This document shows positions 14,270 through 63,373 of a DNA stretch of 64,000 bases, piece after piece. The stretch is from assembly GCA_016490735.1 (NCBI GenBank), contig JAEMWC010000247.1, forward strand, positions 239,501 through 303,500. The letters are read 5' to 3'. Under the pieces are notes generated by a model. It did not search any database. It was not told the DNA's origin and was given only the letters and a program-made list of their open reading frames with translations. Each line of letters starts with the position of its first letter. Within the stretch, counting starts at the first letter, position 1. Source of the stretch: Pachyseris speciosa (taxonomy: Eukaryota > Cnidaria > Anthozoa > Scleractinia > Pachyseridae). The position numbers were made by a program, and so were the translations under genes.

Positions 14270-15606
14270 TTAGAGTTCGAGGGATTCACTTGATGCTTTG
14301 ATTTCGAAAAGAACTCCGTAAAGCCAGATACCAGAAAGACGAATTCCATCAGCAGTGTTGGCTGCTTGAACGATCTTGAAGTAGCGGTACCCTGGCATTT
14401 CGCCATTGACACGCCACGTGGTTGTGAGACGGCAGCTATCAGTGCGGTCTTTAATGTGCGTTTTGCGAAGGCTGTGCCAAATGTGGCCATCAGTTGAACC
14501 TTTAAGTTGAGGCAAGATAAGGGCGGGGTCTCTCTTTCGATCTGTTAGGGCATAGTGAATGATGAACAAAAGATGATTCTCACCCAAATCAATCCACCAC
14601 CATGAATTAGGTTTTTCTTCAGTACCACAGGTTGGGCCTTTCCTGCTGAGTAGTACATCAATTGCTTCTCCCGGCCCGTCAGTGGAACGCGTAGCTTTGA
14701 GTTTTGCTGAGGTATTATTCGTCAAGTGATGGATGACATCAAAACTTGGTTTACGATCGTCGAACGGTAGGAAAATGCGTAAATAAAAAGATAATAACTC
14801 TGTTGCTTGCATTGACAATAATAACCAGTGATCACACACAAACCAAGCTTTCATGTATTTTACTGGAAAACAATGTTCATTGGCGTTTCGTATTACAGTG
14901 GAACCCCGATATAACGATATGCCCAAGGGAGCAATAAAATTATATCGTAATATCAAGGAACAATTATATCGAAACTCCCAATATAACGTTATGGCCGTAT
15001 AATAACCGAAAATATCGTTATATCGGGGTAAACTTAACATGTAATATTTTAATGCATATTTTTTTAAACGAAATTTGGGATGAGTATCAAATGATTCACA
15101 AATATAACATTTCAAGAGCGCAGCAATGTCCTTAAACAGTTTGCAAAGCACTAAAAGTTTTCAAAGTTTACACAGCAAATTCTGTCTGGGTGTGAATCGT
15201 ACAAGTGAAAAAAATCAACTGAAACATTTGAAGTTATGACTGTTATCGTTTTTACTTATCCAGTTCACGTGTTCATTGATTTTTTAAAGAACCAGACACT
15301 TGTTCACTCTGAAAGTACTCCTGCAGTCTTAAAAACGCGTCCTCCATCGCCGAAAGAGAGAAAGAAATTCTCTCTCTCGTTCGCCTGAATCTTTCAACGT
15401 AATTACAGAATCCCTTATTGCCTTCACTTAATCTCTCGTCACCCTCTTTAATTGCATTCACCCTTGCTTTTACCCTTCTTACGAGATTCTCTTTCTCGCT
15501 TTGTAGCTTCAGTCTTTTTCTCTTGAACAAGTTCTCTTTCTCTTTCCAAGCTCATGAGAAGGCTCTTGCGTTCTTGGTTTGTGTTGGGTTTTCTCTTTAG
15601 CGCGCC
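14270..15606 (-). pseudogene. CARD/coiled-coil/F5-8C-like gene, copy A remnant
   Basis: Minus strand. The last exon (14,778-14,270) is still open and encodes the F5/8-type-C-like domain: SWWWIDLGENHLLF, GSTDGHIWHSL, GYRYFKIVQ and LSGIWLYG. The splice acceptor before it reads AC where unit B has AG, so normal splicing is lost. Only about 187 bp of the coiled-coil exon survive (15,606-15,420, matching 40,385-40,199), fused to intronic sequence, and the reading frame shifts inside it. CARD and the other exons are absent. An in-frame three-residue insertion distinguishes the last exon from unit B. Confidence 0.75.
14896..15070. mobile_element. Pogo/Tigger-like element, left end only
   Basis: The end CAGTGGAACCCCGATATAAC after TA matches the left end at 35,952 in unit B. 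The right end is missing because the deletion that removed most of the CARD gene cut through the element. Confidence 0.5.
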
Positions 15607-35329: not shown

Positions 35330-35829
35330 TTACAGTTCGAGGGATTCACCCAATGCTTTAATTTCGAGAAGAACTCCGTAAAGCCAGATACCAGAAAGAT
35401 GAATCCCATTAGCAGCTCGAACGATCTTGAAGTAGCGGTACCCTGGCATTTTGCCATTAACACGCCACGTAGTTGTGAGACGGCAGCTATCAGTGTGATC
35501 TTTAATGTGCGTTTTACTAAGGCTGTGCCAATTGTGGCCATCAGTTGAACCTTCAAGTTGAAGCAAGGTAAGGGCGGGGTCTCCCTTTTGATTTGTCAGG
35601 GCATAGTGAGTGATGAACAAAAGATGATTTTCACCCAAATCAATCCACCACCATGAATTGGGTTTTTGTTCAGTACCACAGGCTGGGCCTTTCCTGTTGA
35701 GCAGTACATCAATTGCTTCTCCCGGCCCGTCAGTGGAACGCGTAGCCATGAGTTTTGGTGAGGTATTATTCGTCAAGTGATGGATGACATCAAACCTTGG
35801 TTTTCGATCGTCGAACGGTAGGAAAATGC
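35330..35829 (-). CDS. F5/8-type-C-like terminal exon
   Basis: Acceptor tttttatttag, then a Gly codon completed across the junction and IFLPFDDRKPRFDVIHHLTN. The domain ends LLEIKALGESLEL and TAA. It is open and has an intact AG, unlike the unit-A copy at 14,270-14,778. Confidence 0.8.
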
Positions 35830-38800
35830 CTAAATAAAAAGATAATATAATAACTCTATTGCTTACATTGACAATAATAACCAGTGATCATACACAAGCC
35901 AAGCTTTCATATATTGTACTGGAAAACAATGTTCATTGGCGTTTCGTATTACAGTGGAACCCCGATATCACGATATACCAGGGAAGCAGTAAAATGATAT
36001 CGTTATATCAAGGAAACGATATAACGATATGGCCATAAAATAACTGAAAACATCGTTATATCGGGGTAAACTTAACATGTAATATTTTAATGCATACTTT
36101 TTAAATGAAATTTGTAATGACTATCAAATGATTTACAATTGTAACCTTTCCAAGCGCGTAGCACGATATGGCCGTAAAATAACTGAAAACATCGTTATAT
36201 CGGGGTAAACTTAACATGTAATATTTTAATGCATACTTTTTAAATGAAATTTGTAATGACTATCAAATGATTTACAATTGTAACCTTTCCAAGCGCGTAG
36301 CACGATATGGCCGTAAAATAACTGAAAACATCGTTATATCGGGGTAAACTTAACATGTAATATTTTAATACATACTTTTTAAATGAAATTTGTAATGACT
36401 ATCAAATGATTCACAATTGTAACATTTCAAGCACGCAGTAATGTCCATAAACAGTTAGCAAAGCAGTAGACGTTTTCTTCAAAGTTTACGCAGCAAATTC
36501 TGTCTGGGTGTAAATCGTACAAGTGCAACAAAACTAAACTTAAACATTTGAAGTTGCGACCGCTATCGTTTTTACTTATCCAATTCACGAACCAGACACT
36601 TGTTCATTCCTGAAAGGACTCCTTCAGTTTGGTTTGCCTCATTTGTTTAACTTGCAGACTTGAAAACGCGTCCTCCATCGCCGAAAGAGATAAAGAAATT
36701 CTCTCTTTCGTTCGCCTGAATCTTCCAACGTAATTACAGAATCCTTTATTTTGCATAGGAATCAGAGGTGTAGGTTGTCGCTGATTCGTCATTATCATCA
36801 TCATCATCATCATCATCAATCCAGCAGGCATCCCAACAATTTTTTCTGGAACTCTGCCTCTAGCTTCTGACTTCCATAGTCATTACACTAGATTTGTCTC
36901 TAACCTTAATTTCCGTAGGCCACTTATACATAATAATTATGGAGCCTCTACTTTTACTTTCATTGCATCGAAAATTTGGGAGACTATTCCACTGCATCTA
37001 AAAAAACTATATTATTACCCCTTTTCCAAACTAAACAAGCTATATCTGCTAAATTCGCAATTTGTTTCCTAGCATTGATTGATTTAGTTTACTTTAGTTT
37101 CTTTGTTCTATTGTTTCATTTGATTCATGTATCCACCTATACTTGTTTACTTTAGCACCTTTACTCTGGGTAAAATTATTTTCATTACGCTTATTGTCTA
37201 TGCCAGTTAGTTTAACGTGGCTGTGACCAACCCGGAAGCATCTGCTACTTTGGTCACTGCGCACATCTTAATTTCGTTAATTTCTTATCTTTATTCTGAT
37301 TTTGTTTTATAACGTACTTCTACTAATGCAATGTAAATTCTATGTAAACAGTGCAAAATAAAAACATCTCTCATCTCATCTCATCATCATCATCATCATC
37401 ATCATCAATGTTTTGCTTAAATTGTGACTGTATACTGACAATATCGTTATCTCGGGAAAGATTTTACTTTCGACCATATAGATTCTCATCAGTATATCGG
37501 GAATATCGTTATTTAGAAGTCGCGTCGTTATATCGGGATTCTGTTCCATACATCTTCCTTCCTACTTTTGTATTGTCACGCAAAAACTAATGATTTGGTG
37601 TGCTCATCATTTAGCTTCTGTGGTGGATACTAAAACAATTATTCACCTCAGTGTCTGTAAAAGTGGTGGATATTCACCACTATTCACCTCCACGTCGGTG
37701 AATAATTATTAATTATACCGGGAATATCGTTATATCGAGGATCGTTATATCGGGGTTCCACTATAATTAGCTGGTGAATTTAAAATATTGATATGAAAGA
37801 GAACACCTGCTATAACAGCTGAGTACCAACAGGTGCTATGAGTCACCGTGGAAGCTAAGCGAACCAGTCTCTGTCGCTAACAGTATATCTCAATTTTTAT
37901 ACATATCAGAAGTAAACTGCTCTTTGATAGGGTTAAAGACACCAGGCGATGATTTACAAATGTAATCACTAGGATCAATATATTAGAGGGGTTGCAGCTT
38001 GATAGAGAAAGAGAGGAATGGTGTGATGTCAGTTGGTGACATTATCCACAATATAAAAGATGGGCAATCGGATGCATGGGCAATCATGAATATGAGATTG
38101 GAAACAGGGTCGTCCAGTTATAGTCTTGAGAGCTTTCATCAGATAAAGGAAAAGACATCGTATTCAGGAAAACTGAGCTATGGTTAATGCATTTGAGACA
38201 ACTGTGTCATTTGTGGCTTTCGAAGGGTCTAGGGTCGTGGGTTTCCTTCTTTTCCAGTCACGCCTTTGTACTCTGAACCTGCAACTGCCGTATATTTGAC
38301 TCACGGCGCTGTCGTTCACAGTTTTCATTTACTGCTTCTTAGCGATTTCCGGTGAATTTAAACTCCTACAAAAGTCGCACTAGCCAATCAACAAGACCAA
38401 GAGACTAAATGAGGTATTCTCGACGAAAGAAGCACAAGTTTAACAGAATGTTTTTCATAGGTAATATTATGTGAAACAATATTATTAAAAATGAAGACTG
38501 ATAAGGATCTCGGGAAAACAACGTAATCTAAAGTGCGAATGCGGCCAGTGCTTCACTCCGTAGATAAAGTGGATACTGAATGGATGTAGCAGTTCAGCGA
38601 AAACTGGTAACCGTAATGTAAGCCTGGTATCTCTCAAAGAAATCTATTTACTGCACTTTAAGAAAGCATGATGAAAAGCCAATGTTTGTTTTTTTCCGAC
38701 GTGAGAACGGCGATTCTTTGCTTTTGTTTTAATGAAAGCTTAAATGAAATGATCCAAAGCGCACCATGGGATCGTTTCTCTGCTAAAAAGGAAAAAGGTT

Positions 38801-46873: not shown

Positions 46874-47652
46874 TTTGTTTCGAGACAGCTAATTTGCAAC
46901 TTTGTGTATACCAGTCAATCATTTTTAATTTCATCTTTGTTACCCTAATTTCAACTCAATTTCACGTTTCTGCACTACAGTTAGGATAAATTGACAAGCT
47001 CTTAACCAATCAGATTGCAGAAATGTTTGCATGTATATTATTCGATCTGAAATCATACGTGTTATTTCAAAGCGCGCGAGTTCGACTTGAAATCACAAAT
47101 GGGTTTCTGGAAAACCCGAATAGCGAATATTGAATAGCAAACAGCGAACAGCGAACAGCGAATAGTAAGAATAGTACGAATAGTGTGAATAGTCTGGAAT
47201 AGTGCGAATGGTAGCGAACAGTCGCGAATACAGTGGCAAATTGGGAGGGAGGGAGGGAGGCAGGCGGGGGGGGGGGGTGGGGTGGGGAGGGGGGGTAACG
47301 AATAGCACCCATTACCTCGAATAATATTGGATTTAGGTTGATTGGACCATGCGAACAAGCGACCCACCTTATATGGAAAGTACTTTATATTCAAATATGG
47401 CAGCGAGAAATCAGCATGATGGCATTTAATTTCGGTTTTGAAACACTGAATCACTTCAACGCTTGTCTAGCAGATCAGGTGATGGTAATGCTGGATCAGG
47501 TACGTGCACGAGGACTCTAAAGTATCCCAGGAAGACATGAAGTCATTGCTTACCTCCATTGTTGACTCGTAAGTCACGTTGATCTTCTTTCCCTGGATAA
47601 GTTAGATCCCGGCTAGCCAGCGCCTAACATGGACGAAACTGAACCTCGGTTA
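46874..47652. other. Low-complexity spacer with G-rich tract
   Basis: 47,105-47,235 is an irregular GCGAATAGT minisatellite. 47,245-47,297 is a plus-strand G-run tract with more than six GGG groups, a strong G-quadruplex candidate. Long proline-rich minus-strand frames here are only its antisense. Confidence 0.7.
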
Positions 47653-48046
47653 AGGATACTTCATCAATTAATGTGATCAAGTAAGCTGAAGCCACTCAAA
47701 AGGCACTAAGGCCACAAGGTAGCGGGCATTACCCCCTAAAATCTACCAAAGCAAAGATTGAGCCCAAGCATTAGCATCCATGGACAGCTGTTTCGGCCGT
47801 GTTAGGCCTCATCAGCATGGCAGAGCTAATGCTCAGGCTCAAGTACCCACATATCAATAAAGCAAGCAATGAAAACGCAAAGCTTGTGGGATGTGGCTGG
47901 AGTAACAAGGATACTTCACAAATTAATGTGAGCAAGTAAGATGAAGCCACTCAAAAGGCACTAAGGCCACAAGGTAGCGGGCATTACCCTCCTAAAATCT
48001 ACCAAAGCAAAGATTGAGCCCAAACATTAGCAACCATGAACAGCTG
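47653..48046. repeat. Hammerhead satellite array, left block
   Basis: About one and a half ~255-bp units beginning AAGGATACTTCATCAATTAA. The first ribozyme is complete (47,758-47,842). The second is cut at 48,046 right after CAGCTG by the left Tx1-like LINE. Confidence 0.85.
47758..47842 (-). ncRNA. Hammerhead ribozyme, type I, satellite unit 1 (intact core)
   Basis: Minus strand, 5' to 3': stem I outer arm TTGAGCC and AGCATTAGC, inner CATG; CTGATGA; stem II GGCC / GGCC with a six-base TAACAC loop; GAAA; palindromic short stem III CAGCTG; cleavage triplet GTC; then CATGG and GCTAATGCT closing stem I. All conserved core positions are present and the cleavage site is the preferred GTC. Architecture follows the hammerheads of animal satellite DNA and retrozymes. 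The tiny palindromic stem III suggests best activity as a dimer. Confidence 0.85.
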
Positions 48047-48489
48047 TTTTTTTTTTTTTTTTAATTCACAGAACGGCCAAAGGGTCGTTGATAAAAAGAG
48101 CAAATACAATACAATATGACGACGAACGCAAAAAGAAAAGCACTCATTACAAAAGATCAAGTTAAAAATGACAACTGCATGATTAGTACACCAATTAAAG
48201 CAATCGAGGACATCACTAATTAAAGGACATCACTAATACGTGTTAAAAGAAAAATTGCCTGAAACCTTACAAGAATATGCCCTGAGAGAGGAAGGAGGAT
48301 TACAACCTACAAATTAAAGACAATCTCGTTATCTGCATCGACAGAGCAAATAATATTATTAGCGGACCAAAAAAACCTAACTCTGTCAAAAGCATCACAG
48401 CGGATACGCAATTTGACATCTTTAATAATCATATCAATGATGGCGCGAGAATCTAAAACGTTATTTCGGAAAGTCGCTAGGTTTCGGGT

Positions 48490-50520
48490 TCACCAAACAA
48501 AAAACAAGATCGAAGCAACTAAATAGTGAAAGATAGGAAGAGTAGTGGAAGACGGAGCATCAGAGAGAGGAAAGAGAACAGAAGAAAAGGATAACACAAA
48601 AGGAGAGCCCCGAAGACGAGAGAGAAAGGGAACGAAATAATTCCAGACCCGGATCACTCTAGGACAGGAAACAAAACAGTATAAACAATATAACCCCCCA
48701 GTATAAACAATATAACCCCAGGATTTAAAAATGGACCTGACACGAACTGCATTGTGCAACAGAAGCCATTAGACATCATTTTTGCGATTTTCAATTAACT
48801 TAAGGGGCGATTTGCGCCAAACCGAGGTCCACCGCTCTATGAGACGCACCCAGCGACAAAAGGAAGGACCAAACCCAAATTTAGAAAGAGTGCGCACAAG
48901 AAAACCATGGTCAACGCGATCAAAAGCTTTCTCCTGGTCTAGCGTAACAAGAATGCCAGTTTCATCAGTTTTGTCAATCATATCGCGTGTATCACGGATT
49001 AACTGTAAGTTAGAATAAATCGATCTTCCCACTACGCCGCACGTTTGATCGTGTTTTGACCGGTTTTAAACGCTCTGTGATTACCTTGGATGCCAGTTTA
49101 TAATCTGTGTTTAGGAGAGATATTGGACGCCAATTTTCCGGCATTCGCCTATCATACGTTTCGTACAGCAAGCGCAAGAGGCCCTCACGCTGGCTGTCAG
49201 CTAGGACCCCCAAACGATTTTTTCGTTAAGAGCTAAAACGAGAATGTCGCCCAAATCATCCCAGAAAGACAGATAAAATTCAGACGGAAGACCATCAGAC
49301 CTAGGCGATTTACCAGTCTGAAGGCCTTTCAGGGCAGAAAAAAACTCATCTTCCGTTATTTTACCCTCACAGCTTTCGCGTTCAAGGTCCGTTAATAAAA
49401 ATTCAAGGTCGTCAATTATTTCAGCTTCAATCTGTGCGTCAAGGTCATCTTTGGTGAAAAGATTTTTATAAAAATTGACAAGAATAGATTCAACATCAGA
49501 CTGTGACGTTTTCTCCACACCATTTGAATCGAAGAGACAATCAAACGAATTCTTGTCAGCTCACTTTTGCTCGAGCCGAAAGAAATGCCGAGTTGGTTTT
49601 TCACCTTCCTTGATCCATTTGGCACGTGAGCGAATTTTCGCGCCCTCCGCCTTCCGTAATAGGAGGGACGAAAGGGCACTTTCGAGGTCTCTTATTTCCG
49701 AAGACATAGAATGGTCACCTTGTGAAAAGGCATGCTTGGCCCAGATTAAACGTTTAGTCAAGCGATTACGTTCGAGATTGGCAGTTTTACGCTTACGATA
49801 AGAAAAACCAATGCATGCGTTGCGGATAACAAGTTTTAAACTATCCCACCATTTCCCCAGAGAACAGAAATCAGCAATACGACCCTTGTGAGTATTAATG
49901 AGCGCCGACAATTCACGCTTAAAGTCTACATCAGACAAAAGGGCAGTGTTAAATTTCCAAATACTGTTTCGAGGACCAGGGCGATTATCAACAGACAGAT
50001 TTAAAACAACAAAATCATGGTCCGAAAAAGGACACGATAAAACTTTGTTTAAGCAAACGTATTTCACTAAATTTTGAGAAACCAAAAAACGATCAAGGGG
50101 CGATGCCTGAGAACTGTTAGCCCAAGTAAAAGAAATTCCACGACGATTTTGTTTACGCCAAATGTCAACAAGTGAGCAATCAGACATGAAATTACGAAGA
50201 ACACGTTTATCAGGCAGATGATTTTCAGAGCAATGCAAGCGATCAAGAACATTATCAATACAATTAAAATCGCCAGCGATCAAACGAACAGGAGAAAGAA
50301 AATAGGAATGTCATCCTTCGAAGAAGGCCCTGCGGTCAGAAACGGTATTTGGAGCGTAAATGTTTACAATATTAAATTTGTGTGACCCCAAAAGCACCAA
50401 TGCACTAATAACTCTGCCATCAGAATCAAAAACATATCGAGAAATCCTGCCCTGGAATCTAGGAGAGACAAGCAAGCCAACACCGGCTGACCGGCCACTC
50501 CTGTAATAAGACAATATCAA
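48490..50520 (-). pseudogene. ORF2 of left Tx1-like LINE (frameshifted, RT deleted)
   Basis: The endonuclease region (50,283 inward) retains GDFNCIDN and SDHDF. The linker and start of RT (LPSEFY, ENWRPISLLNTDYKLASKV) follow, then a deletion removes motifs downstream of KAFDRVDHGF. The C-terminal region ends SILFFVW. Confidence 0.7.
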
Positions 50521-50608
50521 AATCAGCCCAAGACAATTCGTTTAAGGCTCACATCTAGCGAGGGTAATTAACCCCGAGCATTTAAGGTGTCAACTTTTAG
50601 CATTGGCG

Positions 50609-52142
50609 CTAATGGCGACCCCTCCTCCTCCTTCGCGCTCTTACCCACTCAGACGCATCATCAGAGTCAGATTCAGAGTTATTGCTGTGATCTCGCTGAC
50701 TGGTTCTTGATTTTTGACGGCTATCATCCCTATAGTAATCCAGCTCGCGACGGCGTTCGCGATCCCGATCGCGGTCCTGCGTCGAAGCACGGTCGTACTC
50801 ACGGTCCCGGTGTCCATCGTGTTCACGATCATACTCACGGGACTCGCGTGGACGATCGCGAACCCGCTCACTGTCCAACGATGCATCAGCATTTTTTCGA
50901 TAGTTTCTTTTACGATCTTCCTTCTGATCATCCTTCCTCTTTTCTTCTTCCTTCCTCCTGTCCTCTTGCTTCCTTTCCTCTCTCTTCCTCTCCCTCTCAC
51001 TCTTCTCGGGTGCTACCGTCGCACTATTCATCTTAGGGGAAGTTCGCTGAGCCTTTTTACCACTGGAATTCAATTGAGTAGATGCCCCACCCGAAGCGAT
51101 CCCCGCAGCGCGAATAGCCTCGACTTGTTCCGGCGAACGCGAGGCCACATTCGCGTACGAGGGCGACGCGACCGGTTGGGAAGTAACAGGCGGGAAGTTA
51201 CGGACTTCGCAACATCAGCATATGATGAATTAGAAGGCTGAACGTCAATGTTTGCACTGTACAACAAGAATGGACAATTTAGGGCGGGATGCTCATTCGA
51301 ACAGCAAATACAACACCGAGTGGACTCCTCGCAATCCTCCATGCGGTGTCCAGGTTTCTCGCAAATGAAACAACGAACAGAGGAACAACTTGCGGCCAAA
51401 CGGTAAGAGTCCCCGCAACGACGACAGGTCTTCGGTTGACCTGGATACCAGAAACGAATGAACTCGCCTGCAAAAAAAAAAAACAGTGGACGGGATGTCC
51501 ATCTGAAGGCGCATTCGAGCAGTACGAATCCCATTAAAAATAGAAGACGCAACTCTATCTCGGCGAAAAGAAAAAACCTTTCCGTACGCCGAAAGCCGCC
51601 CAATTAAAATCGTATCCGGCAATTCGGTCGGAGCTTCGAAAACTTTAACAAGTACCACTTTCCTTTCACAATCCCCCAAGAAAACTTGGCAACCATTGAT
51701 ACAAACAACTTGAAGGCCGAGGGCAACATTTTTAGCGTCACTAGATTCAAAGGACACAATCAACGTGTTGTTTGAAGCGCGGCGCTGTATTGAATTAATC
51801 TTGTCAATGTCCAGGCCCGCTTTGTCAATCCCTTCAAGAATGTCTTGGCTAGGGCAGAGGGTGTCTATTGTGAAGGACACAGATAACTCCTTCTTCAGAC
51901 GTACACCAGTTTTTCCAAACGACCACGTGTTGCCGGGACTTTAGTAAAACGAGCCCCTCTCGCATATAAATCCTGCAAAACACTCGGTGCAGGAACGAAA
52001 TCTTGTCGATCCTCAGCCTCTGGGGACTTGGACCCCTGGGAAGTATTATTTTCCTCGGAAAACAAGACCGGCGTTTCGACGACAACATCACCCTCCGCAT
52101 TCTCATCCGTTTTCGCATTCTCATCCGGTTAATTCTCGTCAC
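50609..52142 (-). pseudogene. ORF1 of left Tx1-like LINE (frameshifted)
   Basis: Order from the 5' end: acidic N-terminus, a nucleic-acid-binding domain-like segment (SFTIDTLCPSQDILEG to GRLSAYGKV), three CCHC knuckles, then EKSERERKREERKQEDRRKE and RD/RE dipeptides resembling the U1-70K low-complexity tail. ORF1 proteins coat the element RNA. Frames shift near 51,880, 51,600 and 51,150. Confidence 0.7.
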
Positions 52143-52152
52143 CTTTGGTCAT

Positions 52153-55100
52153 ACCGCCGAATAAATGGAACTGGGCTTCGAACATCACGAACTTCACTAA
52201 TTCAGCTCCTTCTTCTCCTATCAGGCGATATCGAAACTTGCCCTGGTCCGAGCGACAGATGTGGCTTGTGTCTAAGAGCTCTGAAGAAAAACCAAAGCAG
52301 GATGTCTTGCTCGCAGTGTCATTTGAAGTTTCACCTGAAATGCTTCTGCCCTGATGACAGCGGAGTCAAGTGTAATTCTTGTCTTTTTAACAACAATAAC
52401 ACCCAAGATGGAGCTAATCAAGATCAACAAGAAAATGTCCATCGATATGACATCCCTGAACTTAGCGAACTTGTCTCTAAAAAGGGCCTTAAGATTCTGC
52501 ATCAGGCCTGCTGGCAAACAAAAGTATCATCTGCCAAATCCTGGATGGCTTTAGGAATGTACACATTTTCTCGGTCAGTGAAACACATTTATCCTCTGAA
52601 AGCGAAGCCGAGGTCCAGATTGAAGGTTACACATTTATTGCAAAGTCAAGGGCTTCTGGTCAAGGTGGAGGTGTTGGTGTTTATATTTCTTCATCTATTC
52701 CCTTTCAAAGACGAATGGATCTCGAACAAGAGGATATTGAATGCATCTGGATTGAAATATTATTTCCTAAAACCAAAGGCTTTCTAGTTGGAATTATTTA
52801 CCGCCCTCCGGATTCTTCTAGACATCTCTGCGCGGATTTCAATTGCAAATTCGAATCCATGCTTTCGTTAGTATCAGCTGAAAACAAAGAATGTATTCTC
52901 TCAGGTGACATTAACTGTAACTATTTGGTGTCCTCGGATCACAAAGAAATTAAATCCATTCTCACCTACTTTGGTCTGAAACAACTCGTTAGCAACCCCA
53001 CGAGAATTACGCGCGAGTCCAAGACCCTAATTGATGTTATTTGTAGCAATGTACCTCATAACATCTCTTCGGTGAAAGTAATCCCAGCTGGCTTGAGCGA
53101 TCATGAACTCATTGGATGTGTTCGCAAGCTGAACAATGTTAAGTTCAATCCGCGAATCATTACTTGCCGAAATTTTGCTAACTATGACCCTAAGCTATTT
53201 TGCGAAGAGTTAAATTCTGCGAATCTTGAGGACGTTTATTCATCTATCAGCGTAAATGAGGCATGGGCCTCTTTACGAGACATTCTCCAACGGTGTATTA
53301 ACAAACATGCTCCCCTTATTTCGAAGAAAGTCAAAGGCCGACTATGTCCTTGGTTGACTCCAGATGTCAGAAAAGAGATGATTCTCAGGGATGGTTTGCT
53401 CAGGAAAGCCCGCCGAACTAATCAGGAAATCGATTGGTCTTCTTATAAACGCCAACGTAACAGAGTATCTGGCCTTGTTAAAAAATGTAAAAGCAGATAT
53501 AATCGAGATCTTCTTAAAGATTGTGCGGACTCTCCAGATAAATTTTGGGCAGCCATCAAGAAACTCTATCCTACCAAGTTGCCTTCTCAACAAGGTTCGG
53601 CATTTGTGATAAATGGATCAAAGTCAACTGACAAAAGCTTCATTGCAAACAGTTTTTGCGAATATTTCAGTACCGTTGCCAGAAATCTGAAAAGCAAATC
53701 AATTTTGCTTCGTGACTTTGTCTGGAGCAAACCTGCTGAAGAGAATCTTCCCAATCAAGTTACGGAAAGTCAATTTACTTTTAAAGCTGTGAAAGAGTTA
53801 GAAATTCTTAAGGAGCTAAAAAATCTTAAGCGGAAAAAAGCGTCTGGACTGGATAATTTCCCCCCGGGATTGCTCAAAGATGCTGCTCCTGTTTTAACTA
53901 AGCCTCTGACATTTATCATCAATTTATCTCTTGAAACTGGAGTTGTACCTAGCGAGTGGAAAGTGGCTAAGGTGATCCCCCTCTACAAATCTGGGTCTCT
54001 GACTGAGATTGACAATTACAGACCTATCTCAATTCTCCCTACTTTGTCAAAGATCTTGGAGAAAATAGTGTACAAGCAACTGATGGCTCATCTAGAACGT
54101 CATAGTCTACTTTTTGAGTACCAATTTGGTTTCCGTTCGAACCGCTCAACGGAACTAGCTGTTACTTACTTCACTGATCTCATTAGAAAGGAGGCCGACA
54201 ATGGAAAGGCAACAGGAGCAGTTTTCATTGACTTATCAAAGGCATTCGATACCATCAGTCATTCTGTTCTATTAAGTAAACTGTCCCGTTATGGCGTTTA
54301 CAATATGGAACTACAATGGTTTACGGATTATTTATTTCTCCGCAAGCAGATCGTTCAATTTAATGGTGTCCGTTCTGAACCAAATCCAATTAACACTGGA
54401 GTTTCTCAAGGAAGTATTCTTGGGCCTCTCCTTTTTCTCATCTTCTTTAATGATGTCCATAGTCCTCTTCGTAATTGTAGGATAATTACTTATGCTGATG
54501 ATACAGTGATTTTTACATCCTCAAGTGATATCGATGTGTTACAAAGCAGCCTTTCCCAGGACTTAGATAATCTCTCTAACTGGTTTCGTGATAATGAACT
54601 TATCCTTAATCTGAAGAAGGGTAAATCCGAGGTGATGCTGTTTGGTACCGGAAAACGGTTAAACTTGTTTCAAGGCTGTCAAGTCAAGCTATCGGTCAAT
54701 GATTCTCCCATCAACACCACTACATGTTATAAATACCTCGGCGTGCATCTGGACCCAACACTTACTTTTGAAACGCATTTTCAAAAAATGTACAAGAAGG
54801 CAGCAGGAAGAGTGAACCTCTTACGGCGCATCCGTTCCAGCATTGATACTCTTAGTGCCCAACGAATTTATCAATCGATGATTATGCCAATATTTACGTA
54901 TTGCGGTTATAATAGTGTTGGATGGTCAGAGTCCCGCAAACGCATGATCCGCTCCATTGAGACCCGAAGCCTCGAAATTATTTCTCCAAAATGCAGTCCG
55001 CAGAACTGTGATCTTCGATTTTTAACAATTGACAACTTTTTACAAAAGAGAGTGTGCTGTTTTGTATTTGACTGCCTTAATGGAACTGCATGTTATCCAT

Positions 55101-55470
55101 TTAAAGATTACTTTCAACGATTACATCATAACGCTTTAAACACTAGAAACAATGGGAAAACAGTAAAACTACCAAAGGTCAAACTGGATTTTGCGCGCCG
55201 TAGTTTTTATTTTTTAGGTGCTTCGATTTTTAATTCATTGCCGTTAAGTTTAAGAAACATTAATTCTAGAGTTTTATTTAGGAAAGCCTTGGATGATCAT
55301 TACTTGTAATTTCTATGATAGTTTTTTATGTATTTTTAGCTTAGTGCATTTTTAGTTTTTAATTCTTAGTCAGCAGGACCCCGCTGATAACAGTACTTTG
55401 TACCGAAGGGTTATCCTGGGTAAATATTCCATTTATTATTATTATTAAATATTCCATTTATTATTATTTT
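52153..55470 (+). mobile_element. CR1/L2-like LINE inserted in the left Tx1-like LINE
   Basis: The insertion is bounded by TTTGGTCAT (ending 52,152) and TTTTGTCAT (ending 55,475); the uninterrupted right Tx1-like copy has a single TTTTGTCAT near 62,865. The element is 5'-truncated just inside ORF2 and ends with GGTTATCCTGGGTAAATATT and an ATTATT tail. It is the youngest-looking protein-coding element here. Confidence 0.8.
52157..55309 (+). pseudogene. CR1/L2-like ORF2: PHD finger, endonuclease, reverse transcriptase
   Basis: The N-terminal part (52,157-52,510) encodes LLLLLSGDIETCPGP and a PHD-type zinc finger (CGLCLRALKKNQSRMSC, CHLKFHLKC, CNSC). A small deletion near KILHQ (about 52,506) shifts frame. 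From GLLANKSIICQILDG onward the frame stays open to TAA at 55,307-55,309. Endonuclease motifs SETHL, GDINCN and LSDHEL and RT motifs FGFRSNRST, FIDLSKAFDT, VSQGSILGPLL and YADDTVIF are intact. Only the one frameshift and the missing 5' end separate it from a normal ORF2. Confidence 0.85.
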
Positions 55471-55752
55471 GTCATGCTGACAACTTGGTGGGTTAAGATG
55501 CTGCTATGTGGTCCAATCAGCAGTTATTCCAACTTGTTAGGCCTCATCAGCATGGCATAGCTCATGCTCAGGCTCAAGTACCCACATATCAATAAAACAA
55601 GCAATGAAAACGTAAAACTTGTGGGATGTGGCTGGAGTGACAAGCATACTTCACAAATTAATGTGATCAAGTAAGATGAAGCCACTCAAAAGGCACTAAG
55701 GCCACAAGGTAGCGGGCATTACCCCCTAAAATCTACCAAAGCAAAGATTGAG

Positions 55753-55842
55753 CCCAAGCATTAGCAACCATGACCAGCTGTTTCGACCTTGTTAGGCCTC
55801 ATTAGCATGGCAGAGCTAATGCTCAGGCTCAAGTACCCACAT
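55753..55842 (-). ncRNA. Hammerhead satellite unit, inactive subtype (CTAATGA)
   Basis: The minus-strand core reads CTAATGA, changing the invariant G5 to A, and stem II is imperfect (GGCC against GGTC). The same defect is in units at 56,031, 56,616 and 57,126. Stem I arms are kept. Confidence 0.75.
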
Positions 55843-56333
55843 ATCAATAAAACAAACAATGAAAACGTAAAGCTTGTGGGATGTGGCTGGAGTGACAAGG
55901 ATACTTCACAAATTAATGTGATCAAGTAAGATGAAGCCACTCAAAAGGCACTAAGGCCACAAGTTAGCGGGCATTACCCTCCTAAAATCTACCAAAGCAA
56001 AGATTGAGCGCAAGCATTAGCAAACATGACCAGCTGTTTCGACCTTGTTAGGCCTCATTAGCATGGCAGAGCTAATGCTCAGGCTCAAGTACCCACATAT
56101 CAATAAAACAAACAATGAAAACGTAAAGCTTGTGGGATGTGGCTGGAGTGACAAGGATACTTCACCAATTAATGTGATCAAGTAAGCTAAAGCCACCCAA
56201 AAGGCACTAAGGTCACAAGTTAGCGGGCATTACCCCCCTAAAATTAATGTGAGCAAGTAAGATGAAGCCACTCAAAAGGCACTAAGGCCACAAGTTAGCG
56301 GGCATTACCCCCTAAAATCTACCAAAGCAAAGA

Positions 56334-56418
56334 TTGAGCCCAAGCATTAACAACCATGAACAGCTGTTTCGGCCTTGTTAGGCCTCATCAGCATGGTAGA
56401 GCTAATGCTCTGGCTCAA
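56334..56418 (-). ncRNA. Hammerhead ribozyme, satellite unit (intact core, GTT site)
   Basis: Minus-strand CTGATGA, GGCC/GGCC stem II with TAACAA loop, GAAA, CAGCTG, then GTT before CATGG. The cleavage nucleotide is T rather than C, allowed by the NUH rule but usually slower. Confidence 0.8.
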
Positions 56419-56843
56419 GTACCCACATATCAATAAAGCAAGCAATGAAAACGTAAAGCTTATGGGATGTGGCTAGAGTGACAAGAATACTTCACAAATT
56501 AATGTGATCAAGTAAGATGAAGCCACTCAAAAGGCACTAAGGCCACAAGTTAGCGGGCATTGCCCCCTAAAATCTACCAAAGCAAAGATTGAGCGCAAGC
56601 ATTAGCAACCATGATCAGCTGTTTCGACCTTGTTAGGCCTCATTAGCATGGCAGAGCTAATGCTCAGGCTCAAGTACCCACATATCAATAAAACAAGCAA
56701 TGAAAACGTAAAGCTTGTGGGATGTGGCTGGAGTGACAAGGATACTTCACAAATTAATGTGATCAAGTAAGCTAAAGCCGCCCAAAAGGCACTAAGGTCA
56801 CAAGTTAGCGGGCATTACCCCCTAAAATCTACCAAAGCAAAGA

Positions 56844-56928
56844 GTGAGCCCAAGCATTAATAACCATGAACAGCTGTTTCGGCCTTGTTAGGCCTCGTCA
56901 GCATGGCAGAACTAATGCTCAGGCTCAA
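56844..56928 (-). ncRNA. Hammerhead ribozyme, satellite unit (CTGACGA core)
   Basis: The core is CTGACGA; position 7 tolerates any base. Stem II and GAAA are intact, the site is GTT, and stem I is slightly weakened (AGCATTAAT opposite ACTAATGCT). Confidence 0.7.
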
Positions 56929-57352
56929 GTACCCACATATGAATAAAGCAAGCAAGGAAAACGTAAAGTTTGTGGGATGTGGCTGGAGTGACAAGAATAC
57001 TTCACAAATTAATGTGATCAAGTAAGATGAAGCCACTCAAAAGGCACTAAGGCCACAAGGTAGCGGGCATTACCCCCTAAAATCTACCAAAGCAAAGATT
57101 GAGCCCAAACATTAGCAACCATGATCAGCTGTTTCTACCTTGTTAGGCCTCATTAGCATGGCAGAGCTAATGCTCAGGCTCAAGTACCCACATATCAATA
57201 AAACAAGCAATGAAAACGTAAAGCTTGTGGGATGTGGCTGGAGTGACAAGGATACTTCACAAATTAATGTGATCAAGTAAGATGAAGCCACTCAAAAGGC
57301 ACTAAGGCCATAAGGTAGCGGGTATTACCCCTAAAATCTACAAAAGCAAAGA

Positions 57353-57437
57353 TTGAGCCCAAGCATTAGCATCCATGGACAGCTGTTTCGGCTTTGTTAG
57401 GCCTCATCAGCATGGCAGAGCTAATGCTCAGGCTCAA
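57353..57437 (-). ncRNA. Hammerhead ribozyme, satellite unit (intact core, GTC site)
   Basis: CTGATGA, stem II GGCC against AGCC (three pairs), GAAA, CAGCTG and GTC before CATGG. Conserved residues are complete. Confidence 0.8.
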
Positions 57438-58081
57438 GTACCCACATATCAATAAAGCAAGCAATGAAAACGTAAAGCTTGTGGGATGTGGCTGGAGTGA
57501 CAAGGATACTTCACAAATTAATGTGAGCAAGTAAGATGAAGCCACTCAAAATGCACTAAGGCCACAAGTTAGCGGGCATTACCCCCTAAAATCTACCAAA
57601 GCAAAGATTGAGCCCAAGCTCTAGCAACTATGAACATTTTTTGTTGATAAAATTTATTCACACAACGGCCAAAGGGTCGTTGATAAAAAGGGCAAATACA
57701 ATACAATATGACGACGAACGCAAAAAGAAAAGCACTCATTACAAAAGATCAAGTTCAAAATGACAATTGCATGATTAGTACACCAATTAAAGCAATCGAG
57801 GACATCACTAATTAAAGGACATCACTAATACTTGTTAAAAGAAAAATTGCCTGAAACCTTACAAGAATATGCCCTGAGAGAGGAAGGAGGATTACAACCT
57901 ACAAATTAAAGACAATCTCGTTATCCGCATCGACAGAGCAAATAATATTATTAGCGGACCAAAAATACCTAACTCTGTCAAAAGCATCACAGCGGATACG
58001 CAATTTGACATCTTTAATAATCATATCAATGATGGCGCGAGAATCTAAAACGTTATTTCGGAAAGTCGCTAGGTTTCGGGT

Positions 58082-61000
58082 TCACCAAACAAAAAACAAG
58101 ATCGAAGCAACTAAATAGTGAAAGATAGGAAGAGTAGTGGAAGACGGAGCATCAGAGAGAGGAAAGAGAACAGACGAAAAGGATAACACAAAAGGAGAGC
58201 CCCGAAGACGAGAGAGAAAGGGAACGAAATAATTCCAGACCCGGATCACTCTAGGACAGGAAACAAAACAGCGTTCAGAAGTTTCCTTGCGCGAGCACAC
58301 AGCACAACAATCAGAACTAATATAACCCCAGGATTTAAGAATGGACCTGACACGAACTGCATTGTGCAACAGAAGCCATAAGACATCATTTTTGCGATTT
58401 TCAATTAAGTTAAGGCGCGATTTGCGCAAAACGAGGTCCAGCGCTCTATGGGACGTCCCACAACAGACCTCCACAAGCCGGCACACCTAGGCGCAGCCCG
58501 TGGGAAATCAAATAAAAGCAAATAAATTTCATTACAAGAAAGATCGTCAGGTAACGTACCATACTTATCAAATAGCTGCTGGAAAATGTTTAGACATCTA
58601 CGGTAAAAAAGAGAAGGCTCGGATGAAGACGGAACCAGATTCGAAGCAAAAGCAAATCGCGCGTGAAGTCTTGCTAGGCGATTTCCGATAAAATAACGGG
58701 CCAGATAATGCCATTTGTGGCCACCAAAATTATCGCGGAGACTACAAAAACAAGACAGACGAAGACATTTAGAACGAAAGTCGACAACGTTTATGCCACC
58801 GAGTTCGATAGGCGCGCAGCAACGCTGCCGACTGACGCTCTGCGTTTTACCTTTCCACACAAAAGACCATACGAGACGATGAAAACGATCACAAACCCAA
58901 TTGGCAGGCGCGATCATTTTGGCCACGTGCCAAAAACGGCTAGCGCCAAGTACATTAACAATCATTGCACGGCCTGAAAAAGACAGCTCTCTCTGTTTCC
59001 ATAAATTAACAACGGTTTCTAGTTTGTCAAGCTTCGATTTCCAGTTATCCGACTTGACAGATACTAGGCCATTTGAAAAATAAACCCCTAAAATTTTTAT
59101 TTTCGATACCCAATTTAAACCGAAGGGAGAGGCGCCATTCGTTCTCCACCGCCCAAGCCACATAGCCTCTGACTTGGAGGAGTTAAGCTTGGCGCCTGAG
59201 CCTAGTTCATACTTATGTACAACACGCAAAAGATGAAAGAGAAAGCTCGCTTTTAACAAAATTAGTGGCATCCTCGGCGTACTGGGAGATTTTAAATTGA
59301 AGACCCCCAGCTCCGGGAAGCCGGAAGCCCTCGATTTGCTTACATTTCCTGATTTGAGTTGACAAAACCTCCGATACCAAGACATAAAGAAGGGGAGACA
59401 GGGGACAACCCTGCCTCACTCCCCTCTTAAGGAAAACGGCGCTAGAGAGAGTGCCAATACAGATAATACGTGAAAAGACATCATTATAAAAGAGACGCAC
59501 CCAGCGACAAAAGAAAGGACCAAAACCAAATTTAGAAAGAGTGCGCACAAGAAAACCATGGTCAACGCGATCAAAAGCTTTTCCCTGGTCTAGCGTAACA
59601 AGAATGCCAGTTTCATCAGTTTTGTCAATCATATCGAGTGTATCACGGATTAACTGTAAGTTAGAATAAATCGATCTTCCCACTACGCCGCACGTTTGAT
59701 CGTGATAAACAATAGAGCTCATCACCGGTTTTAAACGCTCTGTGATTACCTTGGATGCCAGTTTATAATCTGTGTTTAGGAGAGATATTGGACGCCAATT
59801 TTCCGGCAATCGCCTATCATCCTTTTTGCACAGCAAGCGCAAGAGGCCCTCACGCTGGCTGTCAGCTAGGACCCCCAAACGATAGTTTTCGTTAAGAACT
59901 AAAACGAGAATGTCGCCCAAATCATCCCAGAAAGACAGATAAAATTCAGGCGGAAGACCATCAGACCCAGGCGATTTACCAGTCTGAAGGCCTTTCAGGG
60001 CAGAAAAAACTCATCTTTCGTTATTTCACCCTCAAAGCTTTCGCGTTCAAGGTCCGTTAATAAAAATTCAAGGTCGTCAATTATTTCAGCTTCAATCTGT
60101 GCGTCAAGGTCATCTTTGGTGAAAAGATTTTTATAAAAATTGACAAGAATAGATTCAACATCAGACTGTGACGTTTTCTGCACACCATTTGAATCGAAGA
60201 GACAATCAAACGAATTCTTCTCAGCTCGCTTTTGCTCGAGCCGAAAGAAATACCGAGTTGGTTTTTCACCTTCCTTGATCCATTTGGCACGTGAGCGAAT
60301 TTTCGCGCCCTCCGCCTCTCGTAATAGGAGGGACGAAAGGGCACTTTCGAGGTCTCTTATTTCCGAAGACACAGAATGGTCACCTTGTGAAAAGGCATGC
60401 TTGGCCCAGATTAAACGTTTAGTCAAGCGATTACGTTTGAAATTGGCAATTTTACGCTTACGATAAGAAAAACCAATGCATGCGTTGCGGATAACAAGTT
60501 TTAAACTATCCCACCATTTCCCCAGAGAACAGAAATCAGCAGTACGACCCTTGTGAGTATTAATGAGCGCCGATAATTCACGCTTAAAGTCTACATCAGA
60601 CAAAAGGGGCAGTGTTAAATTTCCAAATACTGTTTCGAGGACCAGGGCGATTATCAACAGACAGATTTAAAACAACAAAATCATGGTCCGAAAAAGGACA
60701 CGATAAAACTTTGTTTAAGCAAACGTATTTCACTAAAACGATCAAGGCGCGACGCTTGAGAATTGTTAGCCCAAGTAAAAGAAATTCCACGAGGATTTTG
60801 TTTACGCCAAATGTCAACAAGTGAGCAATCAGACATGAAATTACGAAGAACACGTTTATCAGGCAGATGATTTTCAGAGCAATGCAAGCGATCAAGAACA
60901 TTATCAATACAATTAAAATCGCCAGCGATCAAACGAACAGGAGAAAGAAAATAGGAATGTAATCCTTCGAAGAAGGCCCTGCGGTCAGAAACGGTATTTG

Positions 61001-61366
61001 GAGCGTAAATGTTTACAATATTAAATTTGTGTGACCCCAAAAGCACCAATGCACTAATAACTCTGCCATCAGAATCAAAAACATATCGAGAAATCCTGCC
61101 CTGGAATCTAGGAGAGACAAGCTAGCCAACACCGGCCCAAAAGTCCAGAGACAATCACCAGACCATTTTCGCGCAATTTTATCAGCTTGTAACTTGCAAG
61201 AGACATGAGTCTCCTCTAATAAGACAATATCAAAATCAGCCCGAGACAATTCGTGTAAGGCTTGATCACATCTAGCGGGGGTAATTAAGCCCCGAGCATT
61301 TAAGGTGGCAACTTTTAGCATTGGCGCTAATGGCGACCCCTCCTCCTCCTTCACCCTCTTACCCAC
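58082..61366 (-). pseudogene. ORF2 of right Tx1-like LINE: endonuclease and reverse transcriptase
   Basis: Pieces in order: endonuclease N-terminus (LKVATLNARGL, VLLEETHVS), GDFNCIDN and SDHDFVVL; linker; RT (ENWRPISLLNTDYKLASKV, LVTLDQGKAFDRVDHG, GVRQGCPLSPLLYVLV); then a C-terminal zinc-knuckle-like CAVCSRKETSERCFVSC. The catalytic YADD is YAED, replacing one of two metal-binding aspartates. Frame changes near 61,030, 60,670, 59,960, 59,300 and 58,450. Confidence 0.75.
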
Positions 61367-62869
61367 TCAGACGCATCATCAGAGTCAGATTCAGAGTTAT
61401 TGCTGTGATCTCGCTGACGGTTTCTTGATTTTTGACGGCTTTCATCCCTATAGTAATCCCGCTCGCGACGGCGATCGCGATTCCGATCGCGGTCCCGCGT
61501 CGAAGCACGGTCGTACTCACGGTCCCGTTGTCCATCGTGTTCACGATCATACTCACGGGACTCGCGTGGACGATCGCGAACCCGCTCACTGTCCAACGAT
61601 GCATCAGCATTTTTTCGATAGTTTCTTTTAAGATCTTCCTTCTGATCATCCTTCCTCTTTTCTTCTTCCTTCCTCCTGTCCTCTTGCTTCCTTTCCTTTC
61701 TCTTCCTCTCCCTCTCACTCTTCTCGGGTGCTACCGTCGCACTATTCATGTTAGGGGAAGTTCGCTGAGCCTTTTTACCACTGGAATTCAATTGAGTAGA
61801 TGCCCCGCCCGACGCGGGCCCCGCAGCGCGAATAGCCTCGACTTGTTCCGGCGAACGCGAGGCCACATTCGCGTACGAGGGCGACGCGGCCGGTTGGGAA
61901 ATTACGGTTGGCGGGAAGCTACGGTCTTCGCAACATCAGCATATGATGAATTGGAAGGCTGAATATCAATGTTTGCACTGTACAACAAGAATGGACAATC
62001 CAGGGCGGGATGCTCATTCGAACGGCAAATAGAACATCGACTGGACTCCTCGCAATCCTCCATGCGGTGTCCAGGTTTCTCACAATTGAAAAAACGAACA
62101 GAGAAACAACTCGCGGCCAAATGATCAGAATCCCCGCAACGACGACAGGTCTTCGGTTGACCTGGATACCAGATACGAATGGATTCGCCTGCAATAAAAA
62201 CAGTGGACGGGATGTCCATCTGAAGGCGCATTCGAGCAGTACGAATCCCATTAAAAATAGAAGACGCAACTCTATCTCGGCGAAAAGAAAAACCTTTCCA
62301 TACGCCGAAAGCCGCCCAATGAAAATTGTATCCGGCAATTCGGTCGGAGCTTCGGAAACTTTAACAAGTACCACTTTCCTTTCACAATCCCCCAAGAAAA
62401 CTTGGCAACCATTGATCCAAACTTCTTGAAGGCCGAGGGCAACATTTTTAGCGTCACTAGATTCAAAGGACACAATCCACGTGTTGTTTGAAACGCGGCG
62501 CTGTATTGAATATATCGTGTCAATATCCAGGCCCGCTTTGTCAAGCCCTTCTAGAATGTCTTGACTAGAGCAGAGGGTGTCTATTGCGAAGTACACAGAT
62601 AACTCCTTCTTCAGACGTACACCAGTTTTTCCAAACGACCACGTGTTGCCGGGGACTTAAGTAAAACGGGCCCCGCTCGCATATAAATCTTGCAAACCAC
62701 ACGCTGCAGGAACGAAATCTTCCCGTTCCTCAGCCTCTGGGGACTTGGACCCCTGGTAAGTATTGTTTTCCTCAGAAAATAAGACCGGCGTTTCGGCGAC
62801 AACATCAACATCCGCATTCTTATCTGCTCTCGCCTTCTCATCCGCTTGATTCTCGTCACCTTTTGTCAT
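61351..62869 (-). pseudogene. ORF1 of right Tx1-like LINE
   Basis: Starts MTKGDENQADEKARADKNAD at 62,869, shifts frame near 62,650, continues through AIDTLCSSQDILEG to the zinc knuckles, and ends in the RD/RE-rich tail and SDDASEWVRG. The second knuckle has lost its first cysteine (FFNCEKPGHRMEDC). Long hydrophobic plus-strand frames at 61,432-61,962 are antisense to the RD-rich tail. Confidence 0.7.
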
Positions 62870-62925
62870 GCAGACAAGTTGGGGGGTGAAGATTGTGCTA
62901 TGTGGGCCAATCAGCAGTTATCCTA

Positions 62926-63345
62926 ACTTGCTAGGCTTCATCAGCATGGCATAGCTAATGCTCAGGCTCAAGTACCCACATATCAATAAAACAAGCAATG
63001 AAAACGTAAAGCTTGTGGGATGTGGCTGGAGTGACAAGGATACTTCACAAATTAATGTTATCAAGTAAGCTGAAGCCACTCAAAAGGCACTAAGGCGACA
63101 AGGTAGCGGGCATTGCCCCCTAAAATCTACCAAAGCAAAGATTGAGCCCAAGCATTAGCATCCATGGACAGCTGTTTTGGCTTTGTTAGGCCTCATCAGT
63201 ATGACAGAGCTAATGCTCTGACTCAAGTACCCACATATCAATAAAACAAGCAATGAAAACGTAAAGCTTGTGGGATGTGGCTGGAGTGACAAGGATACTT
63301 CACAAATTAATGTGATCAAGTAAGATGAAGCCACTCAAAAGGCAC
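62926..63345. repeat. Hammerhead satellite array, right block
   Basis: About one and two-thirds units. The ribozyme at about 63,142-63,226 (minus) keeps CTGATGA and GTC, but GAAA is AAAA (G12 lost) and CATG is CATA next to the core, so it is probably inactive. The array ends at an ATGTT microsatellite. Confidence 0.8.
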
Positions 63346-63373
63346 TATGTTATGTTATGTTATGTTATGTTAT
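63346..63373. repeat. (TATGT)n microsatellite at the array end
   Basis: About five and a half TATGT units directly abut the truncated last satellite unit. Confidence 0.9.

Follow-up and report, generated by a model that had tools for sequence, protein, structure and literature searches.

Metazoan retrozymes are tandem repeats of 150-450 bp that carry a type I hammerhead ribozyme, have a low GC content, lack long terminal repeats (LTRs) and are flanked by large target-site duplications (Cervera and de la Pena, 2020; PMC7229834). Coral retrozymes, with units of 220-240 bp, cleave and circularise (PMC7229834), and duplications of 15 bp have been reported for repeats of Nematostella (PMC4918200). 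Accounts of their helper differ: it is left open in a review in which the repeats show no conserved motif from which to deduce it (PMC7761336), Penelope-like elements (PLEs) have been named as a strong candidate (PMC7229834), and long interspersed nuclear elements (LINEs) or PLEs are given in another source (PMC11722881). Here we analyse a hammerhead repeat of the coral Pachyseris speciosa within a stretch of 64,000 nucleotides (assembly GCA_016490735.1, contig JAEMWC010000247.1, G000:C247:239501-303500), referred to as the window, and its relatives in a genome of 983,672,442 bases in 2368 contigs.

Penelope elements provide the second point of comparison. The anole element PAc has both strands of its target cleaved and extended from internal starts, and its genomic copies carry a 30-40-bp 'tail' that is the stretch between the two start sites (PMC11167929). 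Rotifer Penelopes have inverted pseudo-LTRs (pLTRs), which usually stand head-to-head, one of them bearing a 31-bp tail (PMC3846280).

The ribozyme repeat described here adds a member to a known class, the metazoan non-LTR retrozymes. It resembles the published ones, among them the Acropora millepora family (Cervera and de la Pena, 2020; PMC7229834), in its type I hammerhead, short tandem repeat, low GC content, large target-site duplications and dispersed arrays without an open reading frame (ORF) or LTR. The unit is longer (~254 bp as against 220-240 bp in A. millepora), and the arrays are inverted with two fixed start sites, whereas the word 'inverted' does not occur in that paper. A literature search, weak on subscription papers, returned no account of inverted retrozyme arrays or of a LINE within a hammerhead. 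What is new is the insertion footprint, with its two starts and two arms, and the presence of a LINE in the ribozyme core.

The hammerhead repeat and its blocks in the window

The minus strand of the unit contains CTGATGA, a GGCC/GGCC stem II closed by the loop TAACAA, GAAA, the palindrome ACAGCTGT, a GTC or GTT cleavage site followed by CATGG, and a stem I of ~30 pairs. These parts of the type I hammerhead named in the original prediction were recovered, and its designation as retrozyme-like is supported by this anatomy together with the published description of metazoan retrozymes. The string CTGATGAGGCC occurs five times in the window, a number reached in 0/100 dinucleotide-preserving shuffles (mean 0.00); an exact scan of viral contigs with the ribozyme string gave no match. 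Four of the nine ribozyme sites in the window have an intact core, and these are exactly the four units that had been picked out beforehand. All lie on the minus strand: 47778-47815, with C at the cleavage position (Hammerhead_HH9, 22.3 bits, E 0.14, 47758-47836); 56354-56391, with T at that position (Hammerhead_1, 31.7 bits, E 1.7e-4, 56353-56397); 56864-56901 (Hammerhead_1, 30.5 bits, 56863-56907); and 57373-57410, again with C (Hammerhead_1, 23.3 bits, 57372-57416). The other five sites are dead, four with CTAATGA and the one at 63162 with AAAA instead of GAAA. The Rfam covariance search that had been proposed as a check came out differently in the window and beyond it. Window matches were reported at the E-value threshold and none attained the gathering score of 34 (best 31.7 bits); in 10 other loci, eight Hammerhead_1 matches stood at gathering score, six in L041 (35.8 bits) and two in L045 (34.1). 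Across 20 other loci of the same genome (L031-L050), 131/138 ribozyme sites are intact. The units are too alike for helix variation to be used as evidence, and changes in the helices are mostly one-sided. A circularised L041 unit folds at -88.0 kcal/mol (z -5.4 against 100 dinucleotide shuffles).

The units, 254-256 bp long and without coding frame or LTR, lie in three minus-strand blocks between 47652 and 63347. The block on the 5' side of the minus strand (62927-63347) ends at unit phase 211, where it abuts a simple repeat of TATGT. Toward the right of the middle block (55533-57636), intact units (56354, 56864 and 57373) take turns with dead ones (56609 and 57119), so that like units stand ~510 bp apart. 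The block on the 3' side (47652-48049) holds one intact hammerhead, and its outward 3' end is at unit phase 13, which is the start site S1 described below. No target-site duplication was recognised at the array's own ends.

The blocks are separated by LINE sequence. One minus-strand copy (LINE copy 2, 57637-62926) contains a CCHC ORF1 region and an L1-like reverse transcriptase (RT) in broken frames, and joins the unit at phase 122 on its 5' side and near phase 134 on its 3' side. The other (LINE copy 1) has its main part at 48050-52152, with its poly(A) joined to a hammerhead unit at phase 127. Its 5' end at 55466-55532, matched by positions 1-69 of copy 2 at 55535-55467, is cut off by a different, nested LINE on the plus strand (52153-55465), which has a 938-aa frame with an RVT_1 match of 135.5 bits. 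The interval 47653-63345 had been described as a single satellite array. Its repeat blocks stand; its continuity does not, because the two minus-strand LINE copies, one with the plus-strand element inside it, split the array into three. We therefore rejected one continuous satellite. The label 'satellite' is itself misleading, since the copies are scattered through the genome as insertions that have fixed ends and target-site duplications, and the bulk of the interval is LINE sequence.

Ends, duplications and arms of the insertions

A 510-bp query gave at least 118 matches in the genome, a lower bound for the family because only 40 of 1763 first-look candidates were scored. Loci were taken by score, 20 of them initially (L031-L050) and seven more as a hold-out. 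The left ends of L043 (edge of its stretch) and L056 (masked letters) were dropped from the end counts, and both loci from the duplication count.

In 13/19 loci a word of 9-15 bp adjoining the array ends is common to both flanks, as compared with 2/342 mismatched locus pairs in the control (longest 19 bp). In the hold-out, for which slightly wider flank windows were used, three of the six evaluable loci had duplications of at least 9 bp (L053, 16 bp; L055 and L057, 15 bp each) and the others shared shorter words (L058, 7 bp; L054, 5 bp; L052, 4 bp). Together, 16/25 evaluable loci carry a target-site duplication of 9-16 bp, which measures 14-16 bp in 12 of them. The longest retrozyme (L031 1827-9375, contig C1787), with 28 full units, interrupts a long open frame that picks up again beyond the 15-bp duplication.

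Head-to-head arrays occur at 16/27 loci: their left-hand units are in minus and their right-hand units in plus orientation, with the 5' heads facing inward. L032 and L039 each have one arm represented by a short fragment only, and the array of L043 continues past the edge of its stretch. The outward 3' ends fall at two sites ~40 nt apart on the unit, S1 (unit positions 8-14, 21 ends) and S2 (44-58, 14 ends), which together account for 35 of 41 (binomial 1.7e-31, with bins set after the first 19 loci); hold-out ends fell within these bins in 6/8 cases. Both ends could be scored at 15 inverted loci: ten combine S1 with S2, none is S1/S1 or S2/S2, and five have one end unclassed, so that all 10 loci with both ends classed carry one of each. 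The retrozyme ends have no poly(A). In arrays of a single orientation, 4/11 outward 5' ends are no more than 10 nt away from the cleavage site (137, 139, 133 and 147; p about 0.01), two of these no more than 1 nt, consistent with run-off at a hammerhead-generated RNA end.

The two arms of an insertion share a template. Divergence among the units of an arm is below 1% at 13/21 loci, the window being one of the 21, as compared with a mean of 2.60% between loci, and opposite arms differ by less than 0.6% at 6/8 loci (the exceptions are L042, 2.10%, and L046, 1.89%). Locus-specific letters are common to both arms in L036 (3/3), L041 (3/3) and L043 (2/2), and L031 has ten departing letters in total over its 28 full units. 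At array centres, 6/12 are clean and join scattered phases with a 1-3 nt overlap and no spacer. Variants recur every five units (L046, and L032 with misses) or every two (L050 and the window). These periods suggest multimeric circles, although unequal crossing-over could equally produce them.

Routes of mobilisation

The ends, duplications and inverted arms form a footprint indicative of Penelope machinery, and one for which any genome can be scored. The resemblance to PLEs (PAc, PMC11167929; rotifer Penelopes, PMC3846280) extends to head-to-head arms, a 30-40-bp tail at one end, duplications and a hammerhead, and the Penelope plan is matched by the two start sites ~40 nt apart. The retrozyme differs in that it lacks a coding frame and has a complete type I hammerhead, stem III included, and in its duplications, mostly 14-15 bp compared with 8-10 bp in rotifers (PMC3846280). 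No frame with an RT and a GIY-YIG endonuclease was present in the units, and the array is not itself a PLE. A PLE of this genome could be compared directly: an insertion at L041 5586-7478 (contig C198), 650 bp from a retrozyme, has inverted head-to-head arms (346/348 columns identical) together with a 13-bp duplication, and one of its ends exceeds the other by 55 nt. This fragment shows a YIDD motif (the RT part was named by eye) and a Pfam GIY-YIG match of 22.3 bits, under the cut-off of 22.6. Its family is very numerous, with 22185 first-look candidates, and among the 97 matches scored, close pairs were head-to-head in 8/8 cases.

Taken as a whole, these features are probably best explained by a non-coding, non-autonomous metazoan retrozyme mobilised by a Penelope-type RT/endonuclease that primes on both strands. 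Hammerhead self-cleavage of the minus-strand RNA would take place before unit base 138, and monomers (or multimers, if a ribozyme is dead) would circularise by analogy with published retrozymes. A Penelope-type RT/endonuclease would then make cuts in the target staggered by about 14-15 nt, and both freed target 3' ends would serve as primers, both-strand extension being published for PAc. One cDNA would begin at S1 (unit phase ~9-13) and the other at S2 (~46-58); each may circle the template several times before the two join head-to-head. The product of this presumed path would be what the copies present: a tandem array that is inverted, bears a target-site duplication and has its two ends offset by ~40 nt like the Penelope 'tail'. 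Inverted arrays that are almost uniform and reach 28 full units (L031) are the expected trace of rolling-circle reverse transcription of small circles, and their inversion predicts a two-primer reaction. The window holds an old insertion of this kind, seen in one orientation and with its S1 end at 47652.

Several observations weigh against this explanation. Within-arm differences exceed 1% at 8/21 loci, including the window (5.83%); L042 has two shared and four arm-specific letters, and L046 two shared and three arm-specific. The script did not resolve 6/12 array centres cleanly, 9/25 evaluable loci lack a duplication of at least 9 bp, and six of the 41 outward 3' ends are strays (at 118, 18, 30, 19, 39 and 18). 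The open hammerhead junction is absent from the minimum-energy circle of one L041 unit. Sampling of loci by likeness to the window favours copies that resemble its dimer. Finally, the S1-S2 stretch of the retrozyme and the L041 PLE tail, which stands for one PLE family, are no more alike than chance, 190/500 shuffles scoring as high; sequence kinship of the two tails was rejected on this ground, and the Penelope link is an argument from architecture because the start regions are not alike in sequence.

Ordinary satellite DNA, with repeats spread by unequal crossing-over, a relic hammerhead and inversions from later DNA rearrangement, would account for tandem arrays, for the period-2 and period-5 patterns and for the age and heterogeneity of the window's array. 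Dispersed insertions with target-site duplications, two fixed end positions and the high proportion of intact ribozymes in the 20 loci are poorly compatible with such an origin, which we regard as most unlikely. The helper might instead be the L1-like LINE of the window, which is physically linked to the repeat; moreover, the 15-bp duplications of the Nematostella repeats have been likened to those of LINEs (PMC4918200). Retrozyme ends without poly(A), two start sites and inverted arms are not what such a helper would leave, and the LINE is found in none of the 20 loci L031-L050, making this assignment very unlikely.

A further rival is retrotransposition with the inverted arms arising by self-priming (snap-back), rather than by priming from both target ends. 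Self-priming on an antisense template has been proposed for rotifer Penelopes (PMC3846280); it would yield head-to-head arms with a common template, and the centre of L031 has nearly equal phases on its two sides (68/59). The arms are, however, of unequal length (for example, 10 and 5 full units in L043), the outer ends begin at different sites, and at the remaining clean centres the two joined phases differ (95/173, 25/213, 219/108, 93/48 and 206/140). Snap-back as the sole source of inverted arrays was rejected on the centre phases and the S1/S2 ends, and we consider this route improbable.

The LINE in the ribozyme core and other window features

The LINE that interrupts the window's units has a CCHC zinc knuckle (28.2 bits) and an RT closest to human L1 ORF2 (140.5 bits, compared with 46.8 for R2). 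Its last 500 bases gave 147 candidates, of which 40 were scored, two of these in the window. Among the first 20 of the 38 scored matches outside it, the poly(A) runs into a retrozyme unit at phase 127-128, in the sense direction, at 20/20 3' junctions. For the 5' junction the query consisted of 74 unit bases followed by LINE sequence, and 40 of 187 candidates were scored, the window's own included; all 40 matches begin inside the unit part (query position 1-18), a result biased toward copies with the junction because the query contained unit bases. In every copy read, the LINE is located between loop II (phase 122) and GAAAC (phase 127). A unit holding it is expected to be an inactive hammerhead because the 3' strand of stem II and G12 are missing there. 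The possibility that the hammerhead array serves as the promoter-like 5' repeats of the LINE was rejected, as the LINE is absent from all of L031-L050.

Site-specific LINEs such as R1/R2 and Tx1 occupy a fixed position in one repeat family and are often full length. The LINE described here likewise keeps to one position of one repeat family, often at full length; unlike theirs, its site is a ribozyme's catalytic core, within a second mobile element, and one copy, on contig C166, moves with the ends of its host. At this locus, LINE pieces 1405-5293 and 4747-5293 are joined head-to-head with a 3-nt overlap, and the hammerhead tails outside them end at phase 10 (S1) and phase 55 (S2). C166 is thus a retrozyme footprint with LINE cargo, one locus of movement with retrozyme ends.

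Whether the LINE entered the hammerhead once and then travelled as cargo of the retrozyme pathway, or inserted repeatedly at the GAAAC core, is finely balanced, and we lean slightly away from the single capture. In its favour, besides the C166 arrangement, 10 of 20 hammerhead tails of the LINE stop at phase 6-19, near S1. A tail allele is also present in 10/20 LINE tails and 0/20 free units (L069 was left out of this comparison and L081 added, and one tail is gapped at the allele position), although it may occur in unsampled free units because those compared were chosen by likeness to the window. Of the other tails, that of L066 stops at phase 237 and that of L069 at 142, and the remaining eight run off the fetched stretch, five of them beyond S1. 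Repeated insertion is favoured by the length and make-up of the poly(A), which vary among LINE copies, and by the two copies in different units of the window array with different 3' ends. That no target-site duplication was seen at C166 also counts against the single capture. Diversity is 7.27% among LINE tails and 2.43% among free units, a difference that stems partly from ragged alignment ends.

The combined picture, in which metazoan retrozymes are Penelope passengers whose circles are copied from both nicked strands at once, from two fixed starts and with the rolling-circle cDNAs joined head-to-head, and a LINE lineage sits in the GAAAC core and shares the retrozyme ends, is put forward tentatively, as an account that falls a little short of being the probable one. 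If it is true, the LINE is a parasite of a ribozyme that is itself parasitic on a retroelement, and the ribozyme core would be an unusual niche.

Individual LINE copies showed further peculiarities. At C275:543067-543412, a minus-orientation LINE 5' junction is followed within 2 bases by a hammerhead unit in plus orientation; this is an inverted array with a LINE near its centre. L069 (C9:212725-212925) keeps only 16 nt of the unit, and the sequence past its tail looks, by eye, like part of a tRNA or of a tRNA-derived short interspersed nuclear element. The tails of L059 (C1716) and L060 (C1002) have in common a private gap of ~15 nt, from one source or as two haplotypes of one locus.

Elsewhere in the window, a 139-bp unit is tandemly repeated at positions 36024-36432 (2.9 copies that are 98% alike), without a recognised feature. 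Two similar frames lie on the minus strand at 14270-15160 and 35330-35887 (FDDRKP.FDVIHHLTNNTS...); the former has no match, and the latter matches an F5/8 type C domain at 25.9 bits, just under the Pfam cut-off of 28.2. A C-type lectin domain (54.7 bits) is encoded on the plus strand at 4008-4523.

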